Below, piece by piece: positions 6,929 through 35,963 of a stretch of DNA of 64,000 nt. Under the pieces are notes generated by a model that saw nothing but the letters and a program-made list of their open reading frames with translations, was not told the DNA's origin and did not search any database. The translations under genes and the position numbers were made by a program. The DNA comes from Halorubrum rubrum (GTDB lineage: Archaea > Halobacteriota > Halobacteria > Halobacteriales > Haloferacaceae), in contig NZ_JANHDM010000007.1 in the NCBI RefSeq assembly GCF_024494685.1, positions 1 through 64,000 on the forward strand, written 5' to 3'. Position 1 is the stretch's first letter; each line of letters opens with the position of its first letter.

Positions 6929-7767
6929 CCTACGACGAGTACCTCGACGGGAAGCCGGTCGTGATCACCGCGGCACTCACCGGGGGCGTCCACGGGAAGG
7001 AGGCGCACCCGGACCTCCCGGAGACGCCGGCCGAGATCGCCGAGGCCGCGACGGCCTGCGAGGCGGCGGGCGCGAGCATCCTCCACCTCCACGCGCGCCG
7101 CGCGAATGGCGAGCGCGCGTTCTCGACCGAGCGGTTCCAGACGGTGACCGACGCGGTCCGCGAGGCGACCGACGACGTCGTGATCCAGCACTCGACGGGC
7201 GGCACCGCCGCATCGAACGACCTCCGCCACGAGCCGCTCCGGACCGACCCCGCCCCGGAGATGGCGTCGCTCGACATGGGGCCGCTCAACCGCTACGACC
7301 GGCTCACTTCCGAGAACACCCGCGAACTCGTCGCGTCGCTCCACGCGGAGATGCGCGATCGGGGCATCAAACCCGAACTCGAGGTGTTCAACGACGGCCA
7401 CCTCAACGAGTCGCTCGCGATCCTCGAGGAGTTCGAGGAGCCGCCGTACCTCAACTTCCTGTTCGGCGGCGGCACCACGTCGCCGCCGCACCCGCGGAAC
7501 CTCCTCAACCGCGTGGAGGGATTGCCAGGACGCGTCGAGTTCAACGTGATCGGTCTCGGTCGCCACCAGCTGCCGATGACGACGCAGTCGGTGCTCCTCG
7601 GCGGACACGTCCGGGTCGGGCTGGAGGACAACCGCTACTACGAGCGGGGCGAGCTCGCGACGAACGAGGCGCTGGTCGCGCGGGCGGCCCGGATCGCGGA
7701 GGAGCTGAGTCGGCCGGTGGCGTCCCCCGCGGAGACGCGGGAGCTGCTGGGGTTGCGGGGCCGCTGA
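6925..7767 (+). CDS. BKACE-family beta-keto acid cleavage enzyme
   Basis: A 280-residue TIM-barrel enzyme of the 3-keto-5-aminohexanoate cleavage family (BKACE, DUF849), which condenses a beta-keto acid with acetyl-CoA to give acetoacetate and a new CoA ester. ITAALTGG near the N-terminus, the zinc ligands in LHLHAR (about 51-56), FLFGGG and GGHVRVGLEDN near the C-terminus are family hallmarks. The keto acid used cannot be told from sequence, and no lysine-fermentation genes are nearby. It overlaps the upstream small gene by 4 bp. Confidence 0.88.
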   Translation: MTYDEYLDGKPVVITAALTGGVHGKEAHPDLPETPAEIAEAATACEAAGASILHLHARRANGERAFSTERFQTVTDAVREATDDVVIQHSTGGTAASNDLRHEPLRTDPAPEMASLDMGPLNRYDRLTSENTRELVASLHAEMRDRGIKPELEVFNDGHLNESLAILEEFEEPPYLNFLFGGGTTSPPHPRNLLNRVEGLPGRVEFNVIGLGRHQLPMTTQSVLLGGHVRVGLEDNRYYERGELATNEALVARAARIAEELSRPVASPAETRELLGLRGR

Positions 7768-7784
7768 CGGTCCCGTCGGGATCA

Positions 7785-8010
7785 GTCCTGGCGGTGGCGT
7801 CGCCGGCGACCGACGAGGCTGGGGAGGCGTGAGGTACGGGATGGCCGCGGTCGGATGGGACCCAACGGGGTAGCCGCGAGTCGAGCGAGGGCGACCGCAG
7901 GGAGCCCTCGCGGCTGGGGCTTCGGCGGTGCTCACCGCAGTCGTCCGTCCCACGTCGTACAGCCGAGCGGCTGGGACTTCGGAGGAGTCATTCGCGGAGA
8001 TCCCGAGGTA
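7785..8010 (-). repeat. Dispersed structured repeat, copy 1
   Basis: The gap before purL holds no gene but a copy of the repeat family also seen near 30.4, 57.6 and 62.5 kb. On the minus strand it reads CCGAAGCCCCAGCCGCGAG, a variable loop, the matching strand CTCGCGGCTACCCCGTTGG, then ACCTCACGCCTCCCCAGCC. A second diverged copy of the first motif (CTCCGAAGTCCCAGCCGCTC) lies just before it, as in copy 3. Confidence 0.7.
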
Positions 8011-8069
8011 ATACCCACGAACGTGCGCATAGAAAAGCATTAGAACGGGCTCGATAACCACGTAAGTGA

Positions 8070-10298
8070 ATGAGTCTGTCCGAGCCGGACCACGAGCTCG
8101 TCGCCGCGGAGCTCGGCCGGGAGCCGACGGCGGCCGAGGCTGCGCTGTTCGAGAACCTCTGGAGCGAGCACTGCGCGTACCGCTCCTCGCGGCCCCTGCT
8201 GTCGGCGTTCGACAGCGAGGGCGACCAGGTCGTCGTCGGTCCCGGCGACGACGCCGCCGTGCTCGCGCTACCGACCCCCGAAGCGGCCGACGCGCCGACG
8301 GGCGAGCGCGACGCCGACGACTACGGCGACACCTACGTCACGTTCGGCATCGAGAGCCACAACCACCCCTCCTACGTCGACCCGTTCGACGGCGCGGCCA
8401 CCGGCGTCGGCGGCATCGTGCGCGACACGATGAGCATGGGCGCGTACCCGATCGCCCTGCTCGACTCGCTGTACTTCGGCGACTTCGGGAGCGAGGAGTC
8501 GCGGTACCTCTTCGAGGGCGTCGTCGAGGGGATCTCCCACTACGGCAACTGTATCGGCGTCCCCACGGTCGGCGGCAGCGTCGCCTTCCACGACGGCTAC
8601 GAGGGGAACCCGCTCGTCAACGTCGCCTGCGTCGGGGTCACGAACGAGGACCGCCTCGTCACGGCGACCGCCGAGGAACCGGGCAACGCCGTAGTGCTCG
8701 TCGGCAACGCCACCGGTCGCGACGGGCTCGGGGGTGCCTCCTTCGCCAGCGAGGACCTCGCCGAGGACGCCGAGACCGAGGACCGGCCCGCGGTCCAGGT
8801 CGGCGACCCCTACGCGGAAAAGCGGCTGATCGAGTGTAACGAGGCGCTGATCGACGAGGACCTCGTCGTCGCCGCGCGCGACCTCGGCGCGGCCGGACTC
8901 GGCGGGGCCTCCTCCGAACTCGTCGCGAAGGGCGGGCTCGGGGCGACGATCGACCTCGAGGCGGTCCACCAGCGCGAGCCGAACATGAACGCCCTCGAGA
9001 TCCTGCTCGCCGAGAGCCAGGAGCGGATGTGTTACGAGGTCGACCCCGACGACGTCGACCGCGTTCGCGACCTCGCCGAGCGGTTCGATCTCGGCTGTTC
9101 GGTCATCGGCGAGGTGACGGCGGGCAACTACGTCTGTACGTTCGACGGCGAGACCGTCGTCGACGTCGACGCCGAGTTCCTCGCGGACGGCGCGCCGATG
9201 AACGACCTCCCGTCGACGGAGCCGGCCGAGCCCGAGCGCGACCTACCGGAGCCCGAACTCGAGGAGGCGTTCGAGGCGGTCGTCTCCGACCCCAACGCCG
9301 CCAGCAAGCGCTGGGTGTACCGGCAGTACGACCACGAGGTGGGGACGCGGACCGCGATGAAGCCCGGCGACGACGCGGCGGTCGTCGCCATGCGCGAGGC
9401 GGCCCCGGACGCGAGCCCGGACGACCCGGAACCCGTCGCGGACGACGCCACGGGCTCGATCGGCGTCGGGCTCGCGCTCTCCTCGGGCGCGAACCCCCGC
9501 TGGACGAGCGTCGCGCCCTACGACGGGGCGCGCGCGGTGGCGATCGAGAACGCGACGAACCTCGCGGCGAAGGGTGCGGTCCCGCTCGCCGCCGTCGACT
9601 GTCTCAACGGCGGCAACCCGGAGAAGCCGGACGTGTACGGCGGGTTCGAGGCGATCGTCGACGGGCTCGCGGACGCGTGTGCCGCGCTCGACGCGCCCGT
9701 CGTCGGCGGCAACGTCTCGCTGTACAACGACAGCGTCGAGGGGCCGATCCCGCCGACGCCGACGCTCGCGGTGCTCGGCACGCGCGCGGGCTACGACGCG
9801 CCGCCCGCCCGCCTGGACGGCGACGCCGCCGACGGGTCCGAGCTCCTCCTCGTCGGTCACGCGGGCGACGGGCTCGGCGGCTCGGCGTACCTCGCGGCGA
9901 CTGGCGGGTCGGACCGGTTCCCGGCGCTGCCCGAGGACCCGGCCGCGGTCGTCTCGTCGCTCGCGGCGGTCGCGCGCCACGAGGCCACCCTCGCGAGCCA
10001 CGACGTAAGCGACGGCGGGCTCGCGGTCGCGCTCGCCGAACTCGTCGACGACGACGCCGGCGCGGACGTGTCGCTGCCCGACCACGCGGCGGCCTTCGAG
10101 GAGACGCCGGGCCGGGTCGTCGTCCAGACGACCGACCCCGACGCGGTCGCCGACCTGACCGGCGACCTCCCCGTCTTCCGGCTGGGGGAGGTGACGACCG
10201 ACGGGACGCTGTCGCTGTCGGTCGGCGAGGAGTCGATCGCGGTCGATTCCGACGCGGTCCGGGAACTGCGCGGCGTGATCGAGCGCGAACTGGCCTGA
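8070..10298 (+). CDS. purL: Phosphoribosylformylglycinamidine synthase subunit PurL
   Basis: PurL is the ATP-dependent synthetase subunit of the fourth step of purine synthesis, making FGAM from FGAR with ammonia delivered by PurQ and PurS. The 742-residue protein is the small archaeal/Bacillus type. [13 protein letters not shown] (about 29-41) and the GIESHNHPS loop are diagnostic, followed by the two AIRS-like halves with glycine-rich loops ([10 protein letters not shown]). purQ and purS are not in the window. The start at 8070 follows an AT-rich stretch (GAAAAGCATTA) about 30 nt upstream that may serve as promoter. Confidence 0.95.
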
Positions 10299-10347
10299 CG
10301 CTCACCCCGAGGCCGTCCCCCTCCGAGAGCCGCCGCGAACGACACGC

Positions 10348-10365
10348 TTTTAGGTTCTCCTAAAA
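10348..10365. promoter_or_regulatory. Perfect palindromic operator, DtxR/SirR-like, over the ABC promoter
   Basis: TTTTAGG, four bases (TTCT), CCTAAAA is a perfect 7-bp inverted repeat. Its right arm runs into AATATAT (10364-10370), the likely TATA element of the ABC ATPase gene 50 nt downstream. TTAGG/CCTAA half sites are typical of DtxR/IdeR/SirR metal-dependent repressors. The overlap with the TATA box implies repression by blocking TBP binding. Which metal is sensed is inferred, not shown. Confidence 0.65.
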
Positions 10366-10414
10366 TATATGACCCCGACCACCGGGCGCCGCTTCTGCCG
10401 GCGTCCGAACGCAC

Positions 10415-11605
10415 ATGGCTCACTCACAAGGGACGGACTCACGACAGTCGACGGATCGCGCGGGCGGCGCGCCGACCGCCTCGGCGGGCACGGACCGGTC
10501 CGTCGCGGACGCCTCGGAGAGGTCGGACGCCGACGACGGGGCCGACCCCGTATTGACGCTCTCGGACGTCTCGAAGGAGTTCGGGCCCGAGCGCGCGGTC
10601 GACGAGGTCTCCCTCGAGGTCCGCTCGGGCGAACTGCTCACCTTCCTCGGCCCTTCGGGCTGCGGCAAGACCACCACCCTTCGGATGATCGCCGGACTCG
10701 AGGAGCCGACGACGGGGTCGATCGCGCTCGCCGGCGAGACGGTCGCGGACGCGGACGCGGGGAACGCCTTCGTCGCGCCCGAGCGCCGCGACGTGGGGAT
10801 CGTCTTCCAGAACTTCGCGCTCTTCCCGCACCTCACCGTCCGCGAGAACATCGCGTTCGGGCTGGAAGCCGACGGGACGGACGCCGACGCCCGCGTCGAC
10901 GAGCTGCTCGAGCTCGTCGAAATGAGCGACCACGGAAAGAAGACGCCCGACCAGCTCTCCGGCGGGCAGAAACAGCGCGTCGCGCTGGCCCGGTCGCTCG
11001 CGCCCGAACCGGACGTCCTGCTCCTGGACGAGCCGTTCTCGAACCTCGACGTGCGCCTGCGCGTCGAGATGCGCGAGGAGGTCCGCCGCATTCTGAAGGC
11101 CGCGGGCGTCACCGCCGTCTCCGTCACGCACGACCAGGAGGAGGCGCTCTCCATCTCCGACCGCGTCGCCGTGATGAACGACGGCTCCATCGAGCAGGTG
11201 GGACGGCCCGAGACCGTCTTCGAACGGCCCGAGTCGAAGTTCGTCGCCTCCTTCCTCGGACGGGCCTCCTTCCTCGAGGGGAGCCTCCGGGAGGGACAGG
11301 TCGAGACGGGCGTCGGCCGGTTCAACGCGGTCACGCTGGAGGGGTACGACACGACCTACGACGGCGCGCCCGTCGACGTGCTCGTCCGCCCCGACGACCT
11401 GCGGGCGACGCCCGCCGACGAGGACGTCGCCGACGGCGTCGTCGTCTCCAGACAGTACGTCGGCCCCTCGTTCATCTACCGGGTCGAGCTCGACTCCGGC
11501 GAGGCGGTCCACTGCCTGCACAACCACGTCGAGGAGTTCGAACTGGACCAGCCGGTCAGCATCGACCTCATCGCCGACCACCCGCTGGCGTGGTATCCGC
11601 GGTAG
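10415..11605 (+). CDS. ABC transporter ATPase, iron(III)/Fbp-like
   Basis: A 396-residue ATPase of the CUT/PotA-FbpC type, which powers import through a membrane permease. Walker A is GPSGCGKTT (79-87), the signature LSGGQKQR (about 181), Walker B LLLDEPFSNLD and the H-loop SVTHDQEE. The C-terminal 120 residues are a TOBE-type regulatory domain (VRPDDLRATP). The first 43 residues are a Ser/Asp-rich extension; ATG 10415 is the only good start. No permease or binding protein adjoins it, so partners lie elsewhere. The metal-type operator at 10348-10365 makes ferric iron the leading substrate guess. Confidence 0.85.
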   Translation: MAHSQGTDSRQSTDRAGGAPTASAGTDRSVADASERSDADDGADPVLTLSDVSKEFGPERAVDEVSLEVRSGELLTFLGPSGCGKTTTLRMIAGLEEPTTGSIALAGETVADADAGNAFVAPERRDVGIVFQNFALFPHLTVRENIAFGLEADGTDADARVDELLELVEMSDHGKKTPDQLSGGQKQRVALARSLAPEPDVLLLDEPFSNLDVRLRVEMREEVRRILKAAGVTAVSVTHDQEEALSISDRVAVMNDGSIEQVGRPETVFERPESKFVASFLGRASFLEGSLREGQVETGVGRFNAVTLEGYDTTYDGAPVDVLVRPDDLRATPADEDVADGVVVSRQYVGPSFIYRVELDSGEAVHCLHNHVEEFELDQPVSIDLIADHPLAWYPR

Positions 11606-11651
11606 ACGTTCCGAGAAGTAGCGTTTCTCGACCGGGTCCGCCGCGCGGCGT

Positions 11652-11798
11652 CTAGATAACCAACGCCGGCAGCACGTACGCGAGAAGCAGACCGATCAGG
11701 GTGACGGCCGCGCCGATGCCGACCTCGCGGCCCCCGAACTCCTGCATCGGGGCGGTCACGCGCTTCTCCGGGTCGGGTTCGTGAGAGTGGTCGTCCAT
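11652..11798 (-). CDS. 48-residue single-span membrane protein
   Basis: A small protein starting MDDHSHEPDPEKRVTAPMQE, with a hydrophilic His/Asp-rich head and one transmembrane helix (about 28-47, VGIGAAVTLIGLLLAYVLPA) at the C-terminus. Short proteins of this shape are widespread in haloarchaea and have no known function. It converges with the ABC ATPase. ATG at 11796-11798 is preferred over an in-frame upstream ATG because family members start this close to the helix. Confidence 0.7.
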   Translation of the reverse strand: MDDHSHEPDPEKRVTAPMQEFGGREVGIGAAVTLIGLLLAYVLPALVI

Positions 11799-11904
11799 GT
11801 TCGGGCGTGTGGTCGCCGGATACAAAAACGCATCTGAACGGAGCGAGTTGGGATCGTCGGCAGTCTGGGGCGTCACGGAGGTTTATACAGATACAAGGAG
11901 AATA

Positions 11905-11924
11905 CCTGCGCCTTTAGGCGCAGG
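11905..11924. repeat. Left-end hairpin of the TnpB element
   Basis: CCTGCGCCTTTAGGCGCAGG forms a near-perfect hairpin 120 bp before tnpB. IS200/IS605-type elements end in subterminal hairpins rather than inverted repeats, and its counterpart lies at 13391-13410. No other gene is seen in 11799-12043. Confidence 0.55.
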
Positions 11925-12043
11925 ATGAATCCGACAACACACTTCGCAGTCCACCGTCTATCGCTAAGCCGGGTATTCTCTCCCCGTCTATACCCGTACT
12001 TTTACAATAGATATAAATATAAGATATTATAGAGGCGTTTCAG

Positions 12044-13357
12044 ATGTTGGAAGTCCACAGAACCCACCGGGCGACAATCCGCAACCACTCACAGGTGGCG
12101 GAGTCACTCGACCGGCATGGGTGGTCGGCCAGCAAACTCTGGAACGTCGCGAACTACTACGCCTGCAGCGTGTGGGACGAAACGGGAGAGATCCCCGACC
12201 ACGGCAGACTCAAAGACGAATTGAAGACACACACCAACTACAAGGGACTCCACTCACAGTCCAGTCAGCGCGTTCTGGAGGAACTCGCTGAAGCCTTCAC
12301 CTCGTGGTATGAGTCTGATGACGATCGGGACAACCCGCCCGGCTACCGCAAGCAAAACTACTACGACTCGCAGGGCCGCCGCGTCCACGAAGAACACCCG
12401 CGCAGTACGGTCACGTGGAAACAAAACGGCATCAAACACGACACCGAACACAACCGTGTTCGCCTTTCAAAAGGTGCCAACCACAAGGAACACCCCAAAG
12501 CATGGGAGTATATCCTTGTTGAGTACGAACCCCGACCCGGCGTCACCGTCGAGAATCTGCAACAGGTTCGTGCCGTCTACGACCGACAGAAGGACCGGTG
12601 GGAACTCCATCTCGTCTGTACCGAAGCGGTGGAAACACCCGACGCGCCCGGCGAGAAAACAGCTGGCGTCGATCTCGGGATCTGTAACGTTGCCGCGGTC
12701 GCGTACAGCACGGAAGAAGCAGAGTTGTACCCCGGTAACCGCCTGAAACAGGACGGCTACTACTTCCCGAAAGAGATCGCAAAGTGCGACGACTCGGGCG
12801 GCGATCGGGCCACTCGACTGTATCACAAGTGGTCAGAACGTCGCACGCACTTCTTCCACGGTCTCGCCAAGCACATCGTCCAGCGGTGTGTTGAGAAAGA
12901 TGTTGGTCGCATCAACGTCGGGGACTTAGAAGGCGTCCGCGAGGACGAACCCGGCAACTCGAAGAACTGGGGAAAGCACGGCAACCTTGACCTGCACGGG
13001 TGGGCGTTCGATAGGTTCTCGAACATCCTCGAATACAAGGCGAAAGTCGAGGGTATCGACGTCGTAGAAGTGTCAGAGCGCAACACGAGTAAAACGTGTT
13101 GTACGTGCGGGAGGAAAGACGAGAGTCAGCGCGTCCACCGCGGTTTGTATGTGTGTGATAGGTGCGACGCTGCGTTTAACGCGGACGTGAATGGGGCGGA
13201 GAACATCCGTCTCGACATGAACCAAAGTAACTCCGAGTCTTCGGCCAGTTTGGACGGGGATAGGAGTACCGGCTGGCTGGCACAGCCAGAAGTCTACCTT
13301 CATGACTTGTCCAGCGGATTCCAACCGCAGGATCAAGTGGTAGACTGCAAACCCTAA
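12044..13357 (+). CDS. tnpB: TnpB, IS1341-type (IS200/IS605) RNA-guided nuclease
   Basis: A full-length 437-residue TnpB. The RuvC-like catalytic residues are in place: Asp in AGVDLGICNVA (about 207), Glu in INVGDLEGVRED (about 295) and Asp in FNADVNGAENI (about 380). The zinc ribbon CCTCGRK...YVCDRCDAAF sits between the last two. TnpB proteins use an RNA made from the element right end to cut DNA, which favours retention of the element at its site. No tnpA transposase gene is present, so the element (about 11.9-13.42 kb) is of the IS1341 type and would need TnpA in trans. GC is clearly lower than the flanking core genes. Confidence 0.9.
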   Translation: MLEVHRTHRATIRNHSQVAESLDRHGWSASKLWNVANYYACSVWDETGEIPDHGRLKDELKTHTNYKGLHSQSSQRVLEELAEAFTSWYESDDDRDNPPGYRKQNYYDSQGRRVHEEHPRSTVTWKQNGIKHDTEHNRVRLSKGANHKEHPKAWEYILVEYEPRPGVTVENLQQVRAVYDRQKDRWELHLVCTEAVETPDAPGEKTAGVDLGICNVAAVAYSTEEAELYPGNRLKQDGYYFPKEIAKCDDSGGDRATRLYHKWSERRTHFFHGLAKHIVQRCVEKDVGRINVGDLEGVREDEPGNSKNWGKHGNLDLHGWAFDRFSNILEYKAKVEGIDVVEVSERNTSKTCCTCGRKDESQRVHRGLYVCDRCDAAFNADVNGAENIRLDMNQSNSESSASLDGDRSTGWLAQPEVYLHDLSSGFQPQDQVVDCKP

Positions 13358-13420
13358 TATCCCAATCCAGCGGCGCGGTGCCGTGGGATTCCTCCGCCTG
13401 AAGGCGGAGGAGGATGTCAA
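13358..13420 (+). ncRNA. TnpB right end / omega-RNA scaffold
   Basis: Directly after tnpB, CCTCCGCCTGAAGGCGGAGG (13391-13410) forms a 9-bp hairpin followed by AGGATGTCAA (13411-13420), the conserved right end of haloarchaeal TnpB elements. By analogy with characterised TnpB systems the guide RNA consists of this end plus the next 15-20 nt, so the predicted guide starts at 13421. The 5' end of the RNA probably lies inside tnpB. Confidence 0.55.
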
Positions 13421-13871
13421 CGGCACTCGTCTCGACGAGCTCGCGATCGGATTCTCTCGGCTCCTCTCACGGCTCGAGAGCGACCACGTCTTCGTGGCGG
13501 GCTACGTGGCCATCCTCGCCGGACGATCACGGTCCACCGAGGACGTGGACGTGTTCATCGAGCGCTGGTCGTCGGGGCGGATCGACGACCTCGTTACCGA
13601 ACTCGAACGCGACGGATACCGGGGGCCGGCCATGCCGCTCTCGGAGACGTACGGAACCCTCGCGAGCGGAACGAGCGTCTGGGTCGCACCGGACGGAGAG
13701 ACGACCCCCCATCTGGAAGTGATTCCCCGGCGACGAGTTCGATCGTGCCTCCCTGGAGAGCGCGATCGACGTACACGTCGGCGACGAAACGATCCCGATC
13801 TGGCCGTTGGAGCTTCGGTGCTGTCGAGGTGGTACCTCCGGCTTCAAGGAGCAAACGGAGTGAGCGAGTAG
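13421..13871 (+). pseudogene. Nucleotidyltransferase relic truncated by the TnpB element
   Basis: Immediately right of the TnpB element an open frame encodes LDELAIGFSRLLSRLESDHV, then VAGYVAILAGRSRSTEDVDV, the GG/DxD-like motif of minimal nucleotidyltransferases related to AbiEii-type proteins. Its own start is missing at the insertion junction. Near 13728 the frame changes: the homologous continuation (DEFDRASLESAIDVHVGDET then IPIWPLELR) is in another frame. After that it decays into a stop. Loss of 5' end plus a frameshift make it a pseudogene. Confidence 0.65.
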
Positions 13872-26234: not shown

Positions 26235-26290
26235 CAGTGCCGTGCCGCTCTGCCCGAAGGACTAAACGGATCTCGGTCGTACCTCGCGGT

Positions 26291-26602
26291 ATGGCCTCGA
26301 TCGTTCGGGACGACGGAATTCGCTCCGGCGAGCCGCGCGTCGAGGGGACGCGGATCACCGTGTACGACATCAAGCGGCGCGTGATCGATGTCGGAGAGGA
26401 TCCACACGTCGTCGCCGGCGAGTATGGGATCTCGATGGCCGACCTCTTCGGCGCGCTCGCGCACTACTACGAACACCGCGACGGGTTCGAGGACGGCGAG
26501 CGGGAGGCCGAACGGACACGTCGCGACGGCGAGCGACGGACCCGGACCCTCGTCGAGGAACTTCACGGCGAGAACGCAGAGTCGACGGAGGACGCGGCGT
26601 AG
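26291..26602 (+). CDS. DUF433 antitoxin
   Basis: A 103-residue protein of the DUF433 (VapB45-like) family. The core GEPRVEGTRITVYDIKRRVI (about 13-32) and YGISMADLFGALAHYYEH (about 45-62) form the winged-helix-like DNA-binding domain; the Arg/Glu-rich tail would wrap the toxin. DUF433 proteins are antitoxins paired with PIN-like DUF5615 toxins, as here: the next gene starts 2 bp after the stop. It probably autoregulates the pair. ATG 26291. Confidence 0.88.
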   Translation: MASIVRDDGIRSGEPRVEGTRITVYDIKRRVIDVGEDPHVVAGEYGISMADLFGALAHYYEHRDGFEDGEREAERTRRDGERRTRTLVEELHGENAESTEDAA

Positions 26603-26604
26603 TC

Positions 26605-26964
26605 GTGTCGTGGATCCTCGCCGACGCGAACGTGCCCGAAGAGTACGTCTCCGCGCTCCGAGGCGACGGGCACGACGTCGTATACTCTCGGGAGATATCC
26701 GGACTCGGTCCGGAGGCGACCGACGACGCGATCGTTGCGTACGCCGAATCCGAAGCGATGGCGATCCTCACGACCGACGTGAAAGATTTCGCCGACCGGG
26801 ACGCTGCCGTCCCGGTGTTCGTCGCACCGCAGGACATGACTGGCGGGGCCGTCCGCGCAGCGGTCGCACGCGTCGAGGCGCTGCCGTTCGATCCGGCGGA
26901 GACCGACCCCACCTGGCTTTCGGCGCTGTGGACCGGTACGGTAGGGGGTCGCTCCTCGCTATAG
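26605..26964 (+). CDS. DUF5615 PIN-like toxin
   Basis: A 119-residue PIN-like nuclease. ILADANVPEEYVSALRGDGH carries the first conserved Asp and AILTTDVKDFADRD the later acidic residues of the RNase-type active site. Such toxins are thought to cleave RNA and are held inactive by the DUF433 partner encoded immediately upstream. The start is GTG 26605, two bases after the antitoxin stop, indicating coupled translation. The last 15 residues overlap the flanking direct repeat and may be acquired sequence. Confidence 0.82.
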   Translation: MSWILADANVPEEYVSALRGDGHDVVYSREISGLGPEATDDAIVAYAESEAMAILTTDVKDFADRDAAVPVFVAPQDMTGGAVRAAVARVEALPFDPAETDPTWLSALWTGTVGGRSSL

Positions 26965-27284: not shown

Positions 27285-27932
27285 TTAGTTATCTTGTGGA
27301 CCTTCTGCTTTGATTGTGAGTGATCCTGTCAGATCGTCCTCAGTAGTTGCCAAGGAGCCAGTCGTGTTGACTTCAACAACTACATATATTTCTTGTCCTG
27401 ACTCAAAATCAACAGGACCTGAAGTGGGTAGATTTTTTGACACAGGGATCGGCGTACCCAGTGCGTTATTCGGTGCTTTCAAATCGGCCCAATAACCATC
27501 GGGGTCATTAGACCCGGAGGTGTGGAACTTGATGAATGACTCATTGGAGTACGTAGTACTGTTGTCTACCCAACTATCGTCATCAAGTTCATACTCTAAA
27601 ATGAGATCGTCGTAATCTTGTCCATCGTTATTGACGATTTTGAAGGCGTAATTAGAGGCGGGATCATCTGTGTCTCCCCAGGTGTATTGAGAGTTAATAT
27701 TCACACCCTCTTCATTTGGACCTTCGAGATCGATAGTAAGCTCACCGTTGCTATCGATCTCAATGCCTTGATGATCTCCTGCCATCAGTCCAATTTTACT
27801 CCCTTCATCACCACTAACATTCACGCTCACTGAGCGAGATGCTGAAGCAGTAGTAAACGCACCGGTACCTGTTGCAGCTGCCGAACCGGCAGCGAGCGAT
27901 CCGATCCCGATCATGAATTTGCGTCGTTCCAT
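27285..27932 (-). CDS. SipW-type signal peptide secreted protein
   Basis: A 215-residue secreted protein. The N-terminus MERRKFMIGIGSLAAGSAAA followed by TGTGAFT is the signal peptide class read by SipW-type signal peptidases, named from the Bacillus TasA/camelysin system. The mature part is acidic and rich in Asn, Thr and beta strands, as in DUF1102/TasA-like fibre subunits. It has lower GC than its neighbours. The palindrome CCTGAA-N5-TTCAGG at 28111-28127 is shared with the next secreted gene upstream. The start is ATG 27930-27932. Confidence 0.8.
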   Translation of the reverse strand: MERRKFMIGIGSLAAGSAAATGTGAFTTASASRSVSVNVSGDEGSKIGLMAGDHQGIEIDSNGELTIDLEGPNEEGVNINSQYTWGDTDDPASNYAFKIVNNDGQDYDDLILEYELDDDSWVDNSTTYSNESFIKFHTSGSNDPDGYWADLKAPNNALGTPIPVSKNLPTSGPVDFESGQEIYVVVEVNTTGSLATTEDDLTGSLTIKAEGPQDN

Positions 27933-28341
27933 GGTTGGTCTACCTCTGTTACCGCACGCGACCCGCGTTCGGGGACATGAGACATCTCGTGTCACCCTGG
28001 GTCGCTCTACTACACCCATGGAACGTATCCCATATCGTTATGAGTCAGCAGAAGAATTTCCGGGGAGAACTGAATCCCTTCTGAGGGTGTCTGTAACTGT
28101 TCTGAATGTTCCTGAACCGGATTCAGGGGATACCTGTGGAGAGGGTGTGGACCGTTTCGAAACGAGAGTACAGCAGAATCATCCCTGATCTCGTCGAGAT
28201 GTTTCCTGGATTCGTTCGTCAGATCGAAGATCTCGATCCTATCTACATTGAATTCTCGACGTTGTACGACGAAACGTCGAAAAACACGCCGAATAAGAGG
28301 TAGATCGTGTCGACAGAGAGTGTCGTGAATCAGCTGTACGC
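27933..28341. other. Long upstream region of the secreted gene, with shared boxes
   Basis: This 409-bp gap has no convincing gene. It carries TATCGTTATG at 28033-28042, TTCCGG at 28058-28063 and the palindrome at 28111-28127, in the same order as upstream of the secreted gene 28342-29256, but with different spacing. This points to common regulation of the two genes. Confidence 0.5.
28111..28127. promoter_or_regulatory. Shared palindromic operator, copy 1
   Basis: CCTGAACCGGATTCAGG: six-base arms CCTGAA/TTCAGG around five bases. It lies 180 bp before the SipW-type gene 27285-27932. The same arms and spacing recur at 29335-29351. Confidence 0.6.
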
Positions 28342-29256
28342 TTAGTCGCCGTTGTCGTCGTTGTTGCCGTTATTGTCGCTATCGCCGTTATCGTCGTTGT
28401 TGCTGTTATTGCCGTCCTCAGTCGACCCCGTCGATTCCGACGAACTCTGGTACGATCCATCGACGATCTCCTGTCCTGCTCCAGTCCCCCAGCTATCCGG
28501 CAGCTCGCCGTCGTCCACGTCGTATTCGGGATGAACGAACGTTTGGTTCGTTTCGGTGAAGTAAACGGCCACGAGATTTCCGCTCGAGTTTCCGTCGAAC
28601 GAGTGTTTCAGTTTCTTTCCGGTGTCCCAAGAGAAGGAACCTTCCACGCGGGCGTCATCGAGATCGGTGTCATCACCCGGCTCGACGAACCACGCTTCCG
28701 CTTCGAACGTTCGTCCTCCCGCGTTCGCATCCGCGTTTCCGGATCCACGGAAGGTGACCTCCGATACCGGTTCGATACAGGTCACTTCGAACTCCCGTGT
28801 GTCGCCGAACAGCGTCGCGACGAGGCCCGTCGCTTCGACGGTGACGGTCACCTCGACCTGTGAGGTACCTCCACCTTCCGAGCAGTGGACTTCACCGCGT
28901 ATCACGTCGGTCGAACCTGGTTTAAACTTCTCACGGTCCGTCTCCGCCAGTTCGATCATCGGCCAGCCGTCATCACCGCTCTGTGGGTTAACTCCGATCT
29001 CGACGTTGGTGATCTCGAGTTTAACATCTCCAGCAAAACGATTCTCGACGGTCACCAGATCGATCGTTCCGTCGTCGTTTTCGTCGGCTGGAACGGTCCT
29101 GTCAGCCGCGTCATATCCCACGAACGCCTCGTCGTCGCCTACCACGTCCACCGACACCCCCCGTTCCGCCTCCATGCTGCTGAACGCTCCGGTGCCGACG
29201 CTCAGCGCGCCGGAGCTCGCGCCGCCGCAAAGCAGGATGAAGCGTCGTCGTTTCAT
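28342..29256 (-). CDS. SipW-type/DUF1102-like secreted protein with Asn-Asp-Gly tail
   Basis: A 304-residue secreted protein. MKRRRFILLCGGASSGALSV then GTGAFSS is a SipW-type signal peptide. The mature part begins with the DUF1102-like strand RGVSVDVVGDDEAFVGYD and has a second beta domain with two cysteines (EVHCSEGG, VTCIEP). From about residue 270 the tail is a repeat of Asn, Asp and Gly (SNNDDNGDSDNNGNNDDNGD), likely disordered or calcium-binding. It is the second candidate fibre subunit of this locus and shares the CCTGAA-N5-TTCAGG operator. Confidence 0.8.
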   Translation of the reverse strand: MKRRRFILLCGGASSGALSVGTGAFSSMEAERGVSVDVVGDDEAFVGYDAADRTVPADENDDGTIDLVTVENRFAGDVKLEITNVEIGVNPQSGDDGWPMIELAETDREKFKPGSTDVIRGEVHCSEGGGTSQVEVTVTVEATGLVATLFGDTREFEVTCIEPVSEVTFRGSGNADANAGGRTFEAEAWFVEPGDDTDLDDARVEGSFSWDTGKKLKHSFDGNSSGNLVAVYFTETNQTFVHPEYDVDDGELPDSWGTGAGQEIVDGSYQSSSESTGSTEDGNNSNNDDNGDSDNNGNNDDNGD

Positions 29257-29334
29257 GTCGAGTGACCCCCTCTCATCCGTTCCATCGCCTCCTACCCCTA
29301 TCGTTATGCGGTTCCGGAAGACCGGTACGCGCCC

Positions 29335-29351
29335 CCTGAAATCGGTTCAGG
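29335..29351. promoter_or_regulatory. Shared palindromic operator, copy 2
   Basis: CCTGAAATCGGTTCAGG has the same CCTGAA/TTCAGG arms and five-base centre as 28111-28127, here 80 bp before ATG 29256. TATCGTTATG (29299-29308) and TTCCGG (29312-29317) also recur between operator and gene. Confidence 0.6.
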
Positions 29352-29396
29352 CGTCGATCACCCGCTCCGAAATCCGGACCTATCCCCCCGTCCGGC

Positions 29397-29975
29397 TCAC
29401 TGGAGCTCCGGCGGCTCCTCCAGTTCCCCGACCTTCATCTCCGCGGTGTAGTACTTGTGCGCGATCGCCGAGAACGTGAATGCGACCACGATAGCGAGGG
29501 TCCACGCGAGCGGCGGGAGCAGGGTAAAGGGCCACGCGCCCACCCACACCGCGGCCACGAGTGCCAGTGCGACCCCCGATAACCCCAGGTAGTACTCGCT
29601 CCAGGGGATCTCCTTCCCCTCGACCACGTCCATGTAGAGGTCGATGTTCTGGAGCGCGTCGGTGGGCTCGACCACCCCGCGGTTCTTGTTGAAGTCGACG
29701 ACGCCGGCGCGGTCCATCTTCGGCAGGTGCGACTGCTGGAGCGCGGTGTAGACGCGCTTGCGGTCGCTGCCCGTGATCTCCGCCATGTCGACGTCGTTCT
29801 CCCAGGCCGCGATCTGCTCGGCCATGTCGCCGATCTCCATCGTCTCCTCCTCTCGTTTCAACAGATGCACCGCGAACCGTCGCCGCTGGTTCGCGAGCAC
29901 GTCGTACAGCTCGTCATCGGAGATGTCGACTCCGACGTCAGAGGGCCCCCCGTCGATCTGCTGTGCCGACGCCAT
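29397..29975 (-). CDS. Winged-helix regulator with two membrane helices (DUF7344-like)
   Basis: A 192-residue protein. Residues about 20-105 form a winged helix: ISDDELYDVLANQRRRFAVH and ITGSDRKRVYTALQQSHLPK, then GVVDFNKNRGVVEPTD. Two adjacent hydrophobic helices follow (about 132-150 and 152-172). Proteins of this design are common haloarchaeal membrane-tethered regulators. Being just upstream of two secreted genes that share an operator, it is the natural candidate to bind it. A TATA-like ATATATGATC lies just before the start. Confidence 0.8.
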   Translation of the reverse strand: MASAQQIDGGPSDVGVDISDDELYDVLANQRRRFAVHLLKREEETMEIGDMAEQIAAWENDVDMAEITGSDRKRVYTALQQSHLPKMDRAGVVDFNKNRGVVEPTDALQNIDLYMDVVEGKEIPWSEYYLGLSGVALALVAAVWVGAWPFTLLPPLAWTLAIVVAFTFSAIAHKYYTAEMKVGELEEPPELQ

Positions 29976-30359
29976 TGCTGTCAGACATATATGATCCTGT
30001 TAACATAAATCCTCTGGTCGTGATAATCTAATGAGGGTTCTCACGGACTGAAACGGAACTATCGTTGAAAGACTGAAACGCAGTTTTCTCGGGTTTGAAC
30101 GCGTGTAGTGGTTGTTATCCGAATTGATTACGAGTGTCTCGGGACGTGAGAACGCGCTCACGTACCTGGTTAATTATATATTTTGGCGCGCAGATCCGCC
30201 CTTCAGGCCGATCGTGAACGGTGGGAGAGCGGTCTTCAGACCGAGCCTGAAGCGGATCGAATCGGCGCTCAACGGAGACGGAGCGGTCTCCGTTGCTGTT
30301 CGAGCTCTCTCCTCCGGAATTAGATCGAGTCGTTTGGTATGGACGTACCTCCGCGGTGA
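29976..30359. other. AT-rich promoter zone with short hairpins
   Basis: No gene is seen. ACATATATGATCC (29985-29997) serves the leftward regulator gene. GACTGAAACG occurs twice (near 30046 and 30069). TTAATTATATATTTTGG (30170-30186) is a strong rightward TATA-like element with no obvious gene behind it, only the repeat copy that follows. Confidence 0.4.
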
Positions 30360-30700
30360 ACGCTTCCGAAGCCCCGGCCGCGAGGCCGGCACGTGCGTTC
30401 ACGAGAGTTGCTCTCGTGAGCCAATCGGAGCGGTGCGTTCTGATGACGACGTAAGCACCGGGGAGCGACAGCGACCGAGCGGGAAGCGTGGTTCGAGAGA
30501 GCGCCGCTCTCTCGTCATCACGGACGGCTTCGCCGTCTCGAACGACGGCGAGCGTGCGCCGTCTCCCGGCTGTCTCGTTGAGTCCCGCCCGCACCGCACG
30601 CTTCCCCGGCGTCGCCGGACGACGTCCGGGTGCCAGAGGCGCACGGCGCCTCGCTCCGACTCCCTCGCGCGTTTCGGCTCGCGCCACCGCAGTCGATCGA
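30360..30700 (+). repeat. Dispersed structured repeat, copy 2 (diverged)
   Basis: The segment reads CCGAAGCCCCGGCCGCGAG, a loop filled with several small hairpins (for example CGAGAGTTGCTCTCG), then GGCTGTCTCGTTGAGTCCC, CGCACGCTTCCCCGGC and GTGCCAGAGGCGCACGGCGC. The order matches copies 1, 3 and 4. A strong TATA-like sequence (30170-30186) lies upstream. No ORF here looks real. Confidence 0.6.
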
Positions 30701-30821
30701 TTCTCTTTCCACATGAGCGACGTATCTCCGGGATCGTTCCGCCGACAACGACACCCTTCAGTGGCTTCAGGAACCCCATAATCAAGGCCCCCAGTCCCCA
30801 ATCGACGGTCGACAGCGACCC

Positions 30822-32432
30822 ATGCCCACCGCCCGCCGCACCGCGATCCTCGCCGTCCTCCTCGTAGCCGCGGGCTCGCTCGCGTTCGCGACGGGCGCGG
30901 CCGTCCTCGACGGCGAGGCCGACACCCTCGCCGACGACCGCGTGGCGATCCAGCCCGCGGACGGGCCGAACGGCAAGTACGCCTACCTGAACGAGGACGA
31001 CGAGATCACGATCGACGTCTCGCCGTCGAACCCGAACCTCTCCGCCGACTTCGAGGGCGTCAACGTCGACTCGACCGGCCGGATCGACGACGTGTTCACG
31101 ATCACCTACACCGCGAACGAGACGGCCGACGTCTGGATCGAGCACGCGGGCGAGAACCTGACGTTCACCACCGACGACGGCCCGATCGAGAACGAGTCGA
31201 ACGCGGTCACCCTCGGGCCGGACGGCTCCGTCTCGGTCGGCCTCCGGTTCGACACGCGCGGCGCGGAGGCGGGCACGTACCTGAGCGGCGACGAGTTCGC
31301 GGTCCACGCGAACGTCACGGACCCGGCGTCGGCGGAGAACGCGGCGTTCACCGCCGAGGGCGACGACGACGCCGCCGGCCCGCGGGTCCTCGTCGCGGAC
31401 GCGGGTCCGTCGGCGCGCGAACTCGAGGCGAGCGACGTCGACCCCGGTGACACGCTCCGGTTCGAGACGGACGGCATGTCGGTGAACGGCGGAGATCTCA
31501 CGCTCGACCGGATCGACCTCCGCGGCGTCGCGACCCGGACCGTCCGCATGGACGCCGACGGAACCCCCGACCCGCTCCCCGAGGCCGGCCCGCTCGAGGC
31601 GGCACGGGACCCGGTGCCGCTCGGCTACCTCGCGCTCGAGTACGACTTCGATCCCGCCGAGGTCGACGAGATGGCGATCCGGTTCAGCGTCGACCGCGAG
31701 TACCTCGGCGACACCGACCCCGAGAACGTGGTCGTCTTCCGCCGGAGCGACGACGGCGACTGGGAGCCGCGCGAGACCGCGGTCCTCGACGAGGACGTCG
31801 TCGAGATCCGCGGGCTCTCCGAGGACCGAGTCCACTTCGTCGCGCGCACGACGGAGTTCTCGACGTTCGCGGTCGCGACCCACACCGACCGGATCGGGAT
31901 CCGGAACGCCTCCACCGCCGACGAGGCCGTCGAGGCTGGAGCCGAGACGACCGTGACCGCGACCGTCGAGAACGCGGGCGGCGCGGCCGGCGAGCGAACC
32001 CTGGAACTCACCGCGGACGGCGGGACGCTCGACGACGAGGCGCTCGACTCCGAGACCGTGTCGCTCGATCCCGACGAGTCGACGACGGTCTCCTTCCCGG
32101 TCGAATTCGCGGAGAACGGCGCGTACGACCTCGCGGTCGACGGGACCTCGGCCGGGACCCTCCTCGTCGGCGACGGGACCGGATCGGGCGACGAGACGGC
32201 TCGGGCCGCCGCGGACGAGGGGAGCCAGCCCCAGCCCGACGCGGACGGCGGGAACGAGGTCTCCACGGACGGCGGGAGCCAGTCCGACGCGGAGGGGTCG
32301 GAAGCCTCCGAGCAGGACCCTCCGACCGAGGAGCCGGGCGGGTTCGGTATCCGGGAACTCGCGGGCGTGATGGGCGTACTCGCCGTGCTCCTCGGGTGGT
32401 TGGCGGTGATCCGCCGAATGCCGCGTTCCTGA
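30822..32432 (+). CDS. Anchored surface protein with DUF1102-like and CARDB-like domains
   Basis: A 536-residue secreted, membrane-anchored protein. Residues 1-30 are a signal peptide (AILAVLLVAAGSLAFATGAA). About 35-200 is a DUF1102-like beta domain; about 360-460 resembles a CARDB-type adhesion repeat (VTATVENAGGAAGERTLELT). An acidic Ser/Gly-rich stalk follows, then PGGFGIRELAGVMGVLAVLL and a basic tail, an archaeal PGF-CTERM-like anchor with an extra glycine. It heads a four-gene rightward operon with the rhomboid-like protease, signal peptidase and DUF5305 protein, and probably presents or anchors the small secreted proteins at the surface. Confidence 0.75.
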   Translation: MPTARRTAILAVLLVAAGSLAFATGAAVLDGEADTLADDRVAIQPADGPNGKYAYLNEDDEITIDVSPSNPNLSADFEGVNVDSTGRIDDVFTITYTANETADVWIEHAGENLTFTTDDGPIENESNAVTLGPDGSVSVGLRFDTRGAEAGTYLSGDEFAVHANVTDPASAENAAFTAEGDDDAAGPRVLVADAGPSARELEASDVDPGDTLRFETDGMSVNGGDLTLDRIDLRGVATRTVRMDADGTPDPLPEAGPLEAARDPVPLGYLALEYDFDPAEVDEMAIRFSVDREYLGDTDPENVVVFRRSDDGDWEPRETAVLDEDVVEIRGLSEDRVHFVARTTEFSTFAVATHTDRIGIRNASTADEAVEAGAETTVTATVENAGGAAGERTLELTADGGTLDDEALDSETVSLDPDESTTVSFPVEFAENGAYDLAVDGTSAGTLLVGDGTGSGDETARAAADEGSQPQPDADGGNEVSTDGGSQSDAEGSEASEQDPPTEEPGGFGIRELAGVMGVLAVLLGWLAVIRRMPRS

Positions 32433-32479
32433 CCGCTCGCGGCGACAGGGATTTACTGTCGGCTGCCGCACGCGTAGTC

Positions 32480-33445
32480 GTGACGAACCGGTCGATCGAC
32501 TCGAGCGTCCGTAGCCTGGATCCACCGCTTCGTGAGGTCCTTCTCTCGCGTACGCGCCCGGTCGACCTCCTCGTCCTGTCGGTCGTGCCGGCCGTTCTCC
32601 TCGCGACCTTCACGCTTCCGGAGACGACTCGGCGGTCGCTCGCGTTCGCGTACCACGACCCGACCGTGCTCACGGCGTTTTCCGCTCACTACGTCCACCT
32701 CGACGCCGATCATCTCCTCGCGAACGTCGCCGCATACGGGCTGCTCGCTGGCGTCGGCTACCTGCTGGCGATCGCGAGCGGACGCCGGCGGTTCTTTTTC
32801 ACGGCGTTCTCGACGTTCGCTCTCGCGTTCCCGTTCGCGCTCTCCGCGCTGAACCTCGCGGTCCCGCGGCGTGCGATCGGCTTCGGCTTCTCCGGCATCA
32901 ACATGGCCTTCTCGGGACTCCTGCCGCTTCTTCTCGCCGCGTTCGTCCACGCGAACCTCTCGGGACGCGGCGGGGGGTCCCCGGCTGGGCGAACGGTCCC
33001 GCTCTCCGGGTCCGTGCCGATCCGTCTCCTCCCGGCGACGTTCCTCGTCGTCGTCGGCTGGATCGGGGTGTTGGCGCTGCCGGCTTCGACCGAGTGGTCG
33101 GGGGTCGTCGGTCCCGGTATCCTCCTCGGGGGGCTACTTCTCGGCGCGGGCGGGGTCCTGTCGACCCCGCTGGAGCGTCGCCCCTCGCTTCGGGAGGGCC
33201 TCCGTCGGGTGGTCGACCGGCGGGGATACGGCGACCTCTTCGCCGTCGGCGCGACCCTGGCGGTCGCGTACCCGGTCGTCGGGTTCCCCGCCGAGCCGGC
33301 GGTCGAGGGCGGTGTGATCAACCTCTATGTCCACCTCCTCGGCTTCTGTCTCGCCTTCATCGGTCCGTACGTCCTGGTCGCGGGCGGCGTCTTCGACGAC
33401 CGGACCTCCCGGTCCGAGGCCCCCGCCGACCTCCGAGTCGATTGA
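32480..33445 (+). CDS. Rhomboid-like intramembrane protease
   Basis: A 321-residue membrane protein with about seven helices. YVHLDADHLLANVAAYGLL resembles the rhomboid H...HxxxN segment, GFGFSGINMAFSGLLP contains the catalytic GxSG serine, and a late helix has NLYVHLLGFCLAF with the partner His. These serine proteases cut within membranes. It starts at GTG 32480, 48 bp after the surface protein. A rhomboid between a surface protein and a signal peptidase suggests a role in processing or releasing anchored surface proteins. The overall similarity is judged by eye. Confidence 0.65.
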   Translation: MTNRSIDSSVRSLDPPLREVLLSRTRPVDLLVLSVVPAVLLATFTLPETTRRSLAFAYHDPTVLTAFSAHYVHLDADHLLANVAAYGLLAGVGYLLAIASGRRRFFFTAFSTFALAFPFALSALNLAVPRRAIGFGFSGINMAFSGLLPLLLAAFVHANLSGRGGGSPAGRTVPLSGSVPIRLLPATFLVVVGWIGVLALPASTEWSGVVGPGILLGGLLLGAGGVLSTPLERRPSLREGLRRVVDRRGYGDLFAVGATLAVAYPVVGFPAEPAVEGGVINLYVHLLGFCLAFIGPYVLVAGGVFDDRTSRSEAPADLRVD

Positions 33446-33514
33446 CACGATCCGCGACTTTATTACGCGCCGACGATAGCGTTCTACCGAGCGCGGCCGT
33501 TTCCCGATCGACAC

Positions 33515-34675
33515 ATGTCACCTCGACGAATCCTCTCGGTCGGCGCACAGGTCGCGGCCGTCCTCGTGGTGCTCTCGCTCGTCGTCGGCCAGTTCCTCGG
33601 ACAGCCCGTCCTCCTGAGCTTCGTCGAGACGGGGAGCATGCAGCCCACGCTCGCCCCCGGCGACGGGTTCGTCGCGATCCCCGCGCCGGTCGCCGGCGGG
33701 ATCGGCGTCGGCGACGTCGTCACCTTCGACGCCCAGGAGATCCAGGGCGGCGGGCTGACAACCCACCGCGTCGTCGACGAGACCGAACGCGGGTACATCA
33801 CGCAGGGGGACGACAACCCGTTCACCGACCAGGACGGCGGCGAGCCGGTCGTCCAGGAGGCGGACGTCGTCGCCAAGGCGCTCACCGTCGGCGGGAGCGT
33901 CGTGGTGATCCCCCACCTCGGGACGGTCGCCATGGCGTTCCAGTCCGGACTGGAGGGCGTCCAGACGTGGCTCGCGGTGACGTTCGGGATGCGGTCGCTC
34001 CAGGGCACCCAGGGACTCGCGTACCTCCTCTTCGGGCTCTCGGTCGTCGCGTACGCGGCCGACTGGCTGCTGACGGGGTCGACGCGCGACCGGCCGGAAC
34101 GCGACCGCTCCCGCGACGACGGCACCTCGGTGACGTTCATCCTCGCCGTGCTCGCGCTCGTGTTGATGAGCACCGCGACCGCAGCGATGGTGGTTCCGGG
34201 GGGCACCCAGGAGTACGGCGTCGTCAGCGCGGAGTTCGAGTCCGACAACCCCACAGTGATCGAGCGGGGGACGAGCCAGGAGCTGGAGTACGTCGTCCCG
34301 AACGCCGGGCTCGTCCCCGTCCGGACGTACGTCGAGCCGGCCAGTCCGGGCGTGGCGGTCGAGCCGCAACGGGTCGCGGTCGGTCCCCGCGGCGAGGGGT
34401 CGACCACGGTGACGCTCACCGCGCCCGAGGAGACCGGCTACTACCGGATGTACGTCGTCGAGCACCGCTATCTTGCGGTGTTGCCGCCGGCGGTCATCGA
34501 CGGCCTCCATCGGGTCCACCCGTGGGCGCCACTCGTCGCGATCAACGCCCTGCTCGGCGGCGGCATCCTCCTCACCGGCCTCCTCCTGCTCCGCGGGGAG
34601 CCGGCGCGGATCCGGAGCCGCGAGTCGCGCCGGAAGACCCCGCTTCACCGACGCCTCCTCCGTAAACTCTACTGA
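33515..34675 (+). CDS. Signal peptidase I, ER/SipW type, with extra C-terminal domain
   Basis: A 386-residue signal peptidase. The Ser/His dyad of the ER/SipW class is visible: Ser41 in ETGSMQPTLAPGD and His84 in LTTHRVVDE, followed by the Asp region ITQGDDNPFTD. Beyond the usual length (about 160) it carries further helices, an extracellular beta domain (about 225-320) and a last helix. Such enzymes remove SipW-type signal peptides, as found on 27285-27932 and 28342-29256. The next gene starts 4 bp after its stop. Confidence 0.85.
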   Translation: MSPRRILSVGAQVAAVLVVLSLVVGQFLGQPVLLSFVETGSMQPTLAPGDGFVAIPAPVAGGIGVGDVVTFDAQEIQGGGLTTHRVVDETERGYITQGDDNPFTDQDGGEPVVQEADVVAKALTVGGSVVVIPHLGTVAMAFQSGLEGVQTWLAVTFGMRSLQGTQGLAYLLFGLSVVAYAADWLLTGSTRDRPERDRSRDDGTSVTFILAVLALVLMSTATAAMVVPGGTQEYGVVSAEFESDNPTVIERGTSQELEYVVPNAGLVPVRTYVEPASPGVAVEPQRVAVGPRGEGSTTVTLTAPEETGYYRMYVVEHRYLAVLPPAVIDGLHRVHPWAPLVAINALLGGGILLTGLLLLRGEPARIRSRESRRKTPLHRRLLRKLY

Positions 34676-34679
34676 CACC

Positions 34680-35963
34680 ATGAGCACGTCCACAGCCCCC
34701 GACGAAAGCCGCCTGCGGCTTCGAGCGTTCCTCGACGCACAGTTCACCGTCCTCCTCGTCGTCTGTCTCCTCGTCGCCGCGGCGGGCGGAGCCGTCGTCT
34801 ACACCACCCACGTCGAGCCCGGCACCGAGACGCAGACGCGGACCGTCTCCTCGTGGACCGTCGAGACCGAGTACGTCCACAGCGCGGAGGTGACGGAGCC
34901 GAGCCCCGTGTTCTCGATCGGCGACGAGCTGACGAACCGCGAGACGTACTTCGCGAGCGTCGCCCCCGAGCTCGACGTCGCGGCAGAGACCACCTACGCC
35001 GCCGACTCGGCGGAGTCCGTCGACGTGGCGGTCAACTCGACGCTCGTCGTGCGTAACGTCGGCGAGGAGGACGTCGTCTACTGGGAGCAACGCGAGCCGG
35101 TCGACTCGACGAACGCGACGGACGTCGAGCGGGGCGAGACGGTCTCGGCCCCGTTCACGCTCAACAGCACCGCGATCGACGAGCGGGTCGCGACGATCGA
35201 GGAGGAGCTTGGGGCCTCCCCCGGCGAGACGGAGACGTTCGTCGTCACCGACGTCGAGGTCGCCGGCACGCTCAACGGCGAGGAGGTCACGTACACGCGG
35301 TCGACCCAGTTCGGGATCAGCCACGAGGGGGCCACCTACACCGTCTCCGATCCGGGCGTCCAGTCCGACGGCGACGAACAGCAGGTCACCGAGACGGTCG
35401 AGCGGACCTACGGGCCGCTCCGGGGGATCGGCGGTCCGGCCCTCCTCGTCGTCGGTCTCCTCGGCACCGCGATCCTCGGGTACGTCCGGTACGAGGGACT
35501 CCTCCGAGTCACCGAGGCGGAGCGGGAGTACCTCTCGTTCCGCGACGATCGCTCGGAGTTCGGCGAGTGGATCACGCGAGTCCGACTCCCGCCCGAGGCG
35601 CACGAGCGGCCGGAGGCGCACGCCGACGACCTCCGGGACCTGGTCGATTTCGCCATCGACAACGACACCGGCGTCGTCGAGGACCCGAACACGGGCGCGT
35701 TCCACGCCGTCTCCGGCGAGTTCGTCTACACCTACCGACCCCCGCTCGCGCCCGCCGCCGGAAGTCTCGACGACTCGGGCGGGGACGGATCCGACGTGGG
35801 GGGTCCCGAGGAGGACGACGGGACCGAGGGGGGGCTGTTCACGCGGCCGCTTTTCGGCGGCGGATCGGACGGCGAGGGCCGTGAGATCGACGGCGACACC
35901 GGCGTCGACGGCGACGCTGAGAGCGCGGACGACGCGGACGGTCGCGTCGGCGACGACGCGTGA
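34680..35963 (+). CDS. DUF5305 membrane protein
   Basis: A 427-residue protein of the archaeal DUF5305 family. An N-terminal helix (about 22-42, FTVLLVVCLLVAAAGGAVVY) and one at about 245-262 bracket an extracellular beta-rich domain; the remaining 165 residues are cytoplasmic, ending in an acidic low-complexity tail. DUF5305 genes commonly accompany signal peptidase and DUF1102-type secreted proteins in haloarchaea, so it is probably part of the export or assembly machinery. ATG 34680 lies 4 bp after the signal peptidase stop. Confidence 0.85.
   Translation: MSTSTAPDESRLRLRAFLDAQFTVLLVVCLLVAAAGGAVVYTTHVEPGTETQTRTVSSWTVETEYVHSAEVTEPSPVFSIGDELTNRETYFASVAPELDVAAETTYAADSAESVDVAVNSTLVVRNVGEEDVVYWEQREPVDSTNATDVERGETVSAPFTLNSTAIDERVATIEEELGASPGETETFVVTDVEVAGTLNGEEVTYTRSTQFGISHEGATYTVSDPGVQSDGDEQQVTETVERTYGPLRGIGGPALLVVGLLGTAILGYVRYEGLLRVTEAEREYLSFRDDRSEFGEWITRVRLPPEAHERPEAHADDLRDLVDFAIDNDTGVVEDPNTGAFHAVSGEFVYTYRPPLAPAAGSLDDSGGDGSDVGGPEEDDGTEGGLFTRPLFGGGSDGEGREIDGDTGVDGDAESADDADGRVGDDA

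Follow-up and report, generated by a model that had tools for sequence, protein, structure and literature searches.

The DNA analyzed here, referred to as the window, is a stretch of 64,000 nucleotides from the haloarchaeon Halorubrum rubrum (contig NZ_JANHDM010000007.1, positions 1 to 64,000), and it contains a locus of seven genes, A to G (Table 1), which a preliminary description of the sequence had read as an export locus for surface fibers of the TasA/SipW kind. All seven genes named in that description are present, with slightly changed coordinates. They form two divergent sets, with C, B and A in line on the minus strand and D, E, F and G following one another on the plus strand, where the gaps are -37 bases between D and E (taking the E start at 32396), 69 bases between E and F, and 4 bases between F and G. 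The membrane-tethered winged-helix protein, the anchored DUF1102-like surface protein, the endoplasmic reticulum (ER)-type Ser/His signal peptidase and the DUF5305 protein of the preliminary description were all recovered, through DUF7344 in C, PF06510 in D, an archaeal signal peptidase I match above the cut-off in F, and PF17231 in G.

Table 1. Genes and C-terminal tag of the fimbria locus in the window.
Feature	Position	Strand	Description
Gene A	27285..27932	-	Predicted Tat-exported pilin-like protein, TafA/TafE family; 215 residues
Gene B	28342..29256	-	Predicted Tat-exported TafC-like fimbrial protein; 304 residues; C-terminus of low complexity, rich in Asn/Asp/Gly
Gene C	29397..29975	-	DUF7344 winged helix plus two C-terminal membrane helices; PF24035, E 1.6e-29
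Gene D	30822..32432	+	TafF/DUF1102-type surface protein; PF06510, E 7.5e-8; CARDB, E 2.6e-6; C-terminal helix
C-terminal tag of D, coding stretch	32322..32429	+	PTEEPGGFGIRELAGVMGVLAVLLGWLAVIRRMPRS; 36-residue model, E 3.5e-17
Gene E	32396 or 32480..33445	+	Rhomboid intramembrane protease; start uncertain, GTG at 32396 or GTG at 32480
Gene F	33515..34675	+	ER/archaeal-type Ser/His signal peptidase I; TIGR02228, 54.2 bits (cut-off 51.85)
Gene G	34680..35963	+	DUF5305 membrane protein; PF17231, E 2.2e-54; two helices flank an outer beta domain

The rhomboid-like protease of the preliminary description is likewise confirmed. E contains the motifs GFSG, HLDADHLLAN and VHLLG, and we identify it as a rhomboid because GxSG is present in 40/40 homologs and the later catalytic histidine is invariant among them; HxxxxHLxxN occurs in 38 of the 40. 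Profile models describe this family poorly: the E protein of the window by itself gives no rhomboid match in Pfam, Pfam Rhomboid matches five of the 23 members of family E, and the rhombosortase model TIGR03902 weakly matches 17 of the 23, with the window protein scoring 17.5 bits, far below the equivalog cut-off of 84. The genome encodes one more rhomboid from this broad family (G000:C4:74551-75327, locus L167), which has no tagged, C-terminally anchored neighbor within 1.5 kb. In F, the Ser-Met and Thr-His-Arg active-site motifs are 99% conserved among 95 homologs. Residues of about 205-365 of this protein form an extra conserved, membrane-anchored C-terminal domain between two further membrane helices. 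DUF5305 is present in the Halorubrum rubrum genome as a single copy, gene G. A Foldseek search with its AlphaFold model (predicted local distance difference test score, pLDDT, 72.5) returned no usher or chaperone, only generic beta-domain matches (AF_0446 at E 4.6e-4, Kir channel domains and TMEM106B).

The N-termini of A (MERRKFMIGIGSLAAGSAAATGTGAF; MERRKF...GTGAF) and B (MKRRRFILLCGGASSGALSVGTGAF; MKRRRF...GTGAF) share an M-(E/K)RR motif followed by the short cleavage context GTGAF, and the arginine pair is invariant across a 25-member alignment of A. Judged from these features, the signals are of the twin-arginine (Tat) type and not classical SipW signals, and searches of Pfam and NCBIfam at E values up to 1 gave no match of A or B to TIGR04088 (the SipW-cognate signal) or to the camelysin/TasA families. 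Thus, of the two small secreted proteins with SipW-type signals that had been described, the proteins stand and the signal type does not. Haloarchaea are known to make Tat-exported thin filaments (tafi), with TafA as a core component (Galeva et al. 2025, iScience 28:111793, as cited in PMC12687288). In NCBIfam, A matches TafE (E 6.7e-11) and TafA (E 1.5e-10) and B matches TafC (E 1.3e-8), in each case below the cut-off. Since A, B and D all stay below the curated Taf cut-offs, they are relatives rather than certified orthologs, and it is as relatives that A and B, by sequence, are assigned to the TafA/TafC/TafE fimbrial family.

A structural link is provided by PDB entry 9p0a, a filament with three chains named 'Pilin', for which our literature search found no paper. 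The 9p0a sequence is matched by the profile of A (E 1.3e-31) and in phmmer searches by A alone (E 1.9e-8) and by B (E 8.7e-5). Its sequence is 100% identical over 197 residues to an open reading frame at G309:C49:117939-118529, downstream of which, on the same strand, lie genes for a D-like (DUF1102) protein, a signal peptidase and a DUF5305 protein, with DUF7344 nearby. This neighborhood places the solved filament subunit in a locus of the same type. The preliminary expectation of an extracellular fiber with its own peptidase and regulator is supported, given the Taf and 9p0a homologies and the presence of the same genes at the 9p0a locus. In the structure comparison, the low-confidence AlphaFold model of A gave weak Foldseek matches (E 0.005-0.06) to FimA, the Sulfolobus thread, the Pyrobaculum bundling pilus (AbpA) and CfaB, so that donor-strand filaments are enriched among them, with TasA at rank 18 (E 0.059). 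Donor-strand assembly of the subunits in Halorubrum rubrum is thus likely.

The surface protein D ends in a tripartite tail, hereafter the tag, made up of E-E-P-x-G-[F/I], one membrane helix and Arg-Arg. Among 22 orthologs of D, the Glu-Pro and one Gly of the tag are invariant, and the tail has a mean pairwise identity of 55%, compared with 26% for the preceding linker. In the Halorubrum rubrum genome, the only protein other than D that the tag model finds above noise is a TafF-like paralog at C1:135134. The TafF model (NF052523) matches this paralog at E 5.3e-7 and an ortholog of D at E 4.5e-8. D is probably a TafF-like protein of the same structural superfamily as the subunits, and we propose it as the fimbria anchor and the substrate of the rhomboid. 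The paralog belongs to a second fimbria locus of the same genome (L010; G000:C1:130000-142357, at 5132-10063 of that stretch), which encodes, besides the tagged TafF-like protein, two TafE/TafA-like pilins, a DUF7344 protein and a short TafC-like protein, and has no peptidase, DUF5305 or rhomboid gene of its own.

The arrangement of the locus is conserved. The gene order and content of the locus recur in named Halorubrum, Halobellus, Haloplanus and Haloparvum genomes, and a tagged D, a rhomboid, a signal peptidase and pilin-like genes are also clustered in nine genomes from two further families, which implies that the clustering is not due to chance. Of the 171 genomes of the haloarchaeal family, 148 encode DUF5305. 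Contents were counted on the 92 DUF5305 loci that span 14 kb or more: 89 have a signal peptidase, 83 a pilin-like gene, 79 DUF7344 and 57 a rhomboid. In 72 of 96 loci, the gene immediately upstream of DUF5305 encodes a signal peptidase. Reference tafi loci, chosen by a TafA match above the cut-off, contain homologs of all the genes of the locus, with the rhomboid in only some of them. All seven gene families of the locus are present in two, L103 and L104. In L104, TafA (245 bits), TafC (552), TafE (222) and TafF (562) all score above their cut-offs, and the order is rhomboid, DUF5305, TafF, TafE, TafA, DUF7344, TafC and signal peptidase.

The tag and the rhomboid go together. In loci with a rhomboid, D carries the strict tag in 31 of 38 cases; of the other seven, five are one residue off, L161 has a looser variant and L106 belongs to the tafi type. 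In loci with a D but no rhomboid, the strict tag is found in 0 of 13, one of which (L136) has a loose variant. When loci were picked by the rhomboid alone, the enrichment of the tag was not significant (9/19 versus 1/9, p = 0.1), and for this reason a genome-wide scan and a test with D tails only were made. The scan of 169 genomes of the family with the tail model gave 77 tags in 61 genomes, and all 61 carry a family-E rhomboid. In each of these genomes, one tagged gene is at most 489 bp away from the rhomboid (median 131 bp), compared with about 0.1 expected if placement were by chance; the p-value for the association is 5e-25, although it overstates independence, since the genomes are related. 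The remaining 16 tags comprise two tandem neighbors and 14 unlinked sites. Leaving out G115:C83, each of the other 13 unlinked tags (that of the window genome itself and those of L199-L210) has pilin-like or DUF7344 genes around it. A second tail model, built from D tails only after removal of two adhesin tails, matched nine genomes that belong to two further families. Every one of the nine has pilin-like genes, DUF7344, a tagged D, an adjacent rhomboid and a signal peptidase, and DUF5305 was detected in seven of the nine stretches. A tenth match, in G464, is partial and due to chance. Family-E rhomboids also occur away from fimbria loci, next to further large surface proteins whose tail is the same or rich in Gly (L169, L172-L177, L181, L183, L184, L211 and L213). 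It should also be mentioned that DUF1102 proteins at L185 (10395-12026), L186 (4507-6102) and L117 (5608-7263) end in the variant tails ELGGIGLLPTL, ELGGISLLPTL or ELAGIGLLPTL; two of the three adjoin a family-E rhomboid, and these tails are possibly a second type of tag.

The analysis thus shows homology to TafA, TafC, TafE, TafF and a solved filament protein, a conserved gene order, conserved catalytic residues and an association of the tag with the rhomboid. We conclude that the locus is a tafi-type fimbria system, known in kind and only distantly TasA-like. We are fairly confident in the explanation as a whole, namely a tafi-type export and assembly locus in which F cuts the signals and the rhomboid E cuts D by way of its tag. 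According to this model, A and B would be exported folded through the Tat pathway, their signals would be removed by the dedicated signal peptidase F, and the freed N-terminal strand of each subunit would probably insert into the next, giving a thin fiber. D, held by a single C-terminal helix, is likely the base or terminating subunit, G is likely an assembly platform or chaperone, and C would regulate locally. E would recognize the tag and cut D in or beside the membrane, after which D would be released or passed to another anchor, and this cleavage would control the attachment of the fiber. Hence, we propose that a dedicated rhomboid releases or sorts the fimbria anchor, where the cleavage, its direction and its effect on the fiber are what we infer. 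The preliminary description had suggested that the rhomboid may trim or release anchored components, and the conserved tag on the adjacent D adds weight to this idea. In a wider form, for which we see the balance as even, haloarchaea would have a rhomboid-based C-terminal sorting system of their own, analogous to the bacterial rhombosortases but lying outside them, in which one rhomboid family reads EEPxG[F/I]-helix-Arg-Arg on fimbria anchors and large adhesins and controls the anchoring or release of Tat-fimbriae. Our literature search found the pairing of such a tag with a rhomboid described for bacteria only, and not for archaea.

Several observations weigh against this explanation. The best Taf score of A or B is 42 bits, against curated cut-offs of 155-410, and the D protein of the window gives no direct match to TafF in NCBIfam. 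The AlphaFold model of A has a pLDDT of only 63.8, and none of its Foldseek matches reaches an E value of 0.001. The rhomboid, found in only 57 of the 92 fimbria loci, is missing from many of them and is thus not a core part. Moreover, D proteins next to rhomboids served to train the tag model, which means that the association is partly built in, and in the tafi-type loci that do have a rhomboid (L101, L103, L104 and L106) the TafF end is multi-helix and has no tag, so that the pairing of tag and rhomboid is not universal.

The last of these points also favors the alternative that survives best, in which the rhomboid acts on something else (quality control of orphan subunits, activation of TatA or surface proteolysis in general) and stands next to D only through the structure of the operon. 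Also in its favor, the rhomboid of tafi-type loci occupies another place in the cluster, and the surface phenotypes of haloarchaeal rhomboids are broad (PMC11985538). However, outside fimbria loci the same rhomboid family is found next to further large surface proteins that carry either this tag or a Gly-rich one, and D and its paralog are the only tagged proteins of the Halorubrum rubrum genome. We regard this alternative as rather unlikely. It is less probable still, and in our opinion improbable, that the tag serves simply to anchor D in the membrane or is a signal for an archaeosortase (PGF-CTERM), with D lipid-anchored by ArtA and the rhomboid irrelevant to it. EEPxGF does resemble PGF, and D contains a PGF-pre-PGF-like domain (E 6.6e-5, below the cut-off), but the PGF-CTERM model matches neither D nor seven other proteins adjoining family-E rhomboids, the Pro-x-Gly-Phe spacing differs from Pro-Gly-Phe, and the tag tracks the rhomboid across genomes. 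That the locus is a matrix-fiber system of the Bacillus TasA/SipW kind, transferred to haloarchaea or common to both, is very improbable, since the weak match of F to the Bacillus SipW model (E 3.2e-6), the distant structural match of A to TasA and the SipW substrate-like GTGAF context are outweighed by the Tat-type RR signals, by the lack of a camelysin/TasA or TIGR04088 match, by the far better matches of A and B to the Taf families and 9p0a, and by a true SipW-type cluster on C24 of the same genome, whose own peptidase scores 117.6 bits against the SipW model. That cluster (L011; G000:C24:48000-62000, at 4858-13565 of that stretch) encodes four proteins with TIGR04088 signals above the cut-off and a SipW-like peptidase, with a DUF7344 regulator upstream, and the TIGR04088 matches indicate that the SipW label of the preliminary description fits this locus instead.

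Tat-fimbriae have been published, and the system is therefore not new in kind. The tafi-type reading of the locus nevertheless places DUF5305 and DUF7344, two widespread unnamed genes, inside a fimbria machine and links them to the majority of genomes in a large family of haloarchaea. The search for natural substrates of archaeal rhomboids continues (PMC11985538), and D offers a specific candidate. The DUF7344 protein C is probably a local regulator, and a homolog of C is adjacent in tafi loci. The Halorubrum rubrum genome has eleven DUF7344 genes, several of which adjoin secreted-fiber clusters, and this suggests that they form a family of local regulators of surface structures. Beside the fimbria locus, at 26237-26964, lie tandem DUF433 and DUF5615 genes, likely a toxin-antitoxin pair of the VapBC type.

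Among known systems, the tafi loci are closest to the locus of the window: they share the Tat-exported proteins of the TafA, TafC, TafE and TafF families, DUF7344, the signal peptidase, DUF5305 and sometimes the rhomboid. They differ in that the proteins of the locus fall under the Taf cut-offs, in gene order (F and G in tandem, and D, E, F and G in line, in the window), and in that the window D ends in a tagged tail with a single helix where TafF has a multi-helix end. The 9p0a filament is of the same protein family and its cluster includes a D-like protein, a signal peptidase and DUF5305, but this cluster lacks a rhomboid, and the D-like protein in it is untagged. With TasA/TapA/SipW of Bacillus and the archaeal donor-strand pili (AbpA and the Sulfolobus thread), the locus has in common secreted beta-rich subunits, a dedicated Ser/His peptidase, probable strand exchange and weak structure matches; unlike them, it has Tat signals and additional DUF5305 and rhomboid genes, and there is no match at the level of sequence families. 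Finally, the GlyGly-CTERM/rhombosortase system of Proteobacteria (TIGR03501/TIGR03902), whose signal is reported to be rare outside that group and whose dedicated pairs are described as adjacent (PMC3237569), also places a rhomboid beside a surface protein that ends in a Gly motif, one helix and basic residues, whereas E lies far under the TIGR03902 cut-off and the archaeal motif is EEPxG[F/I].

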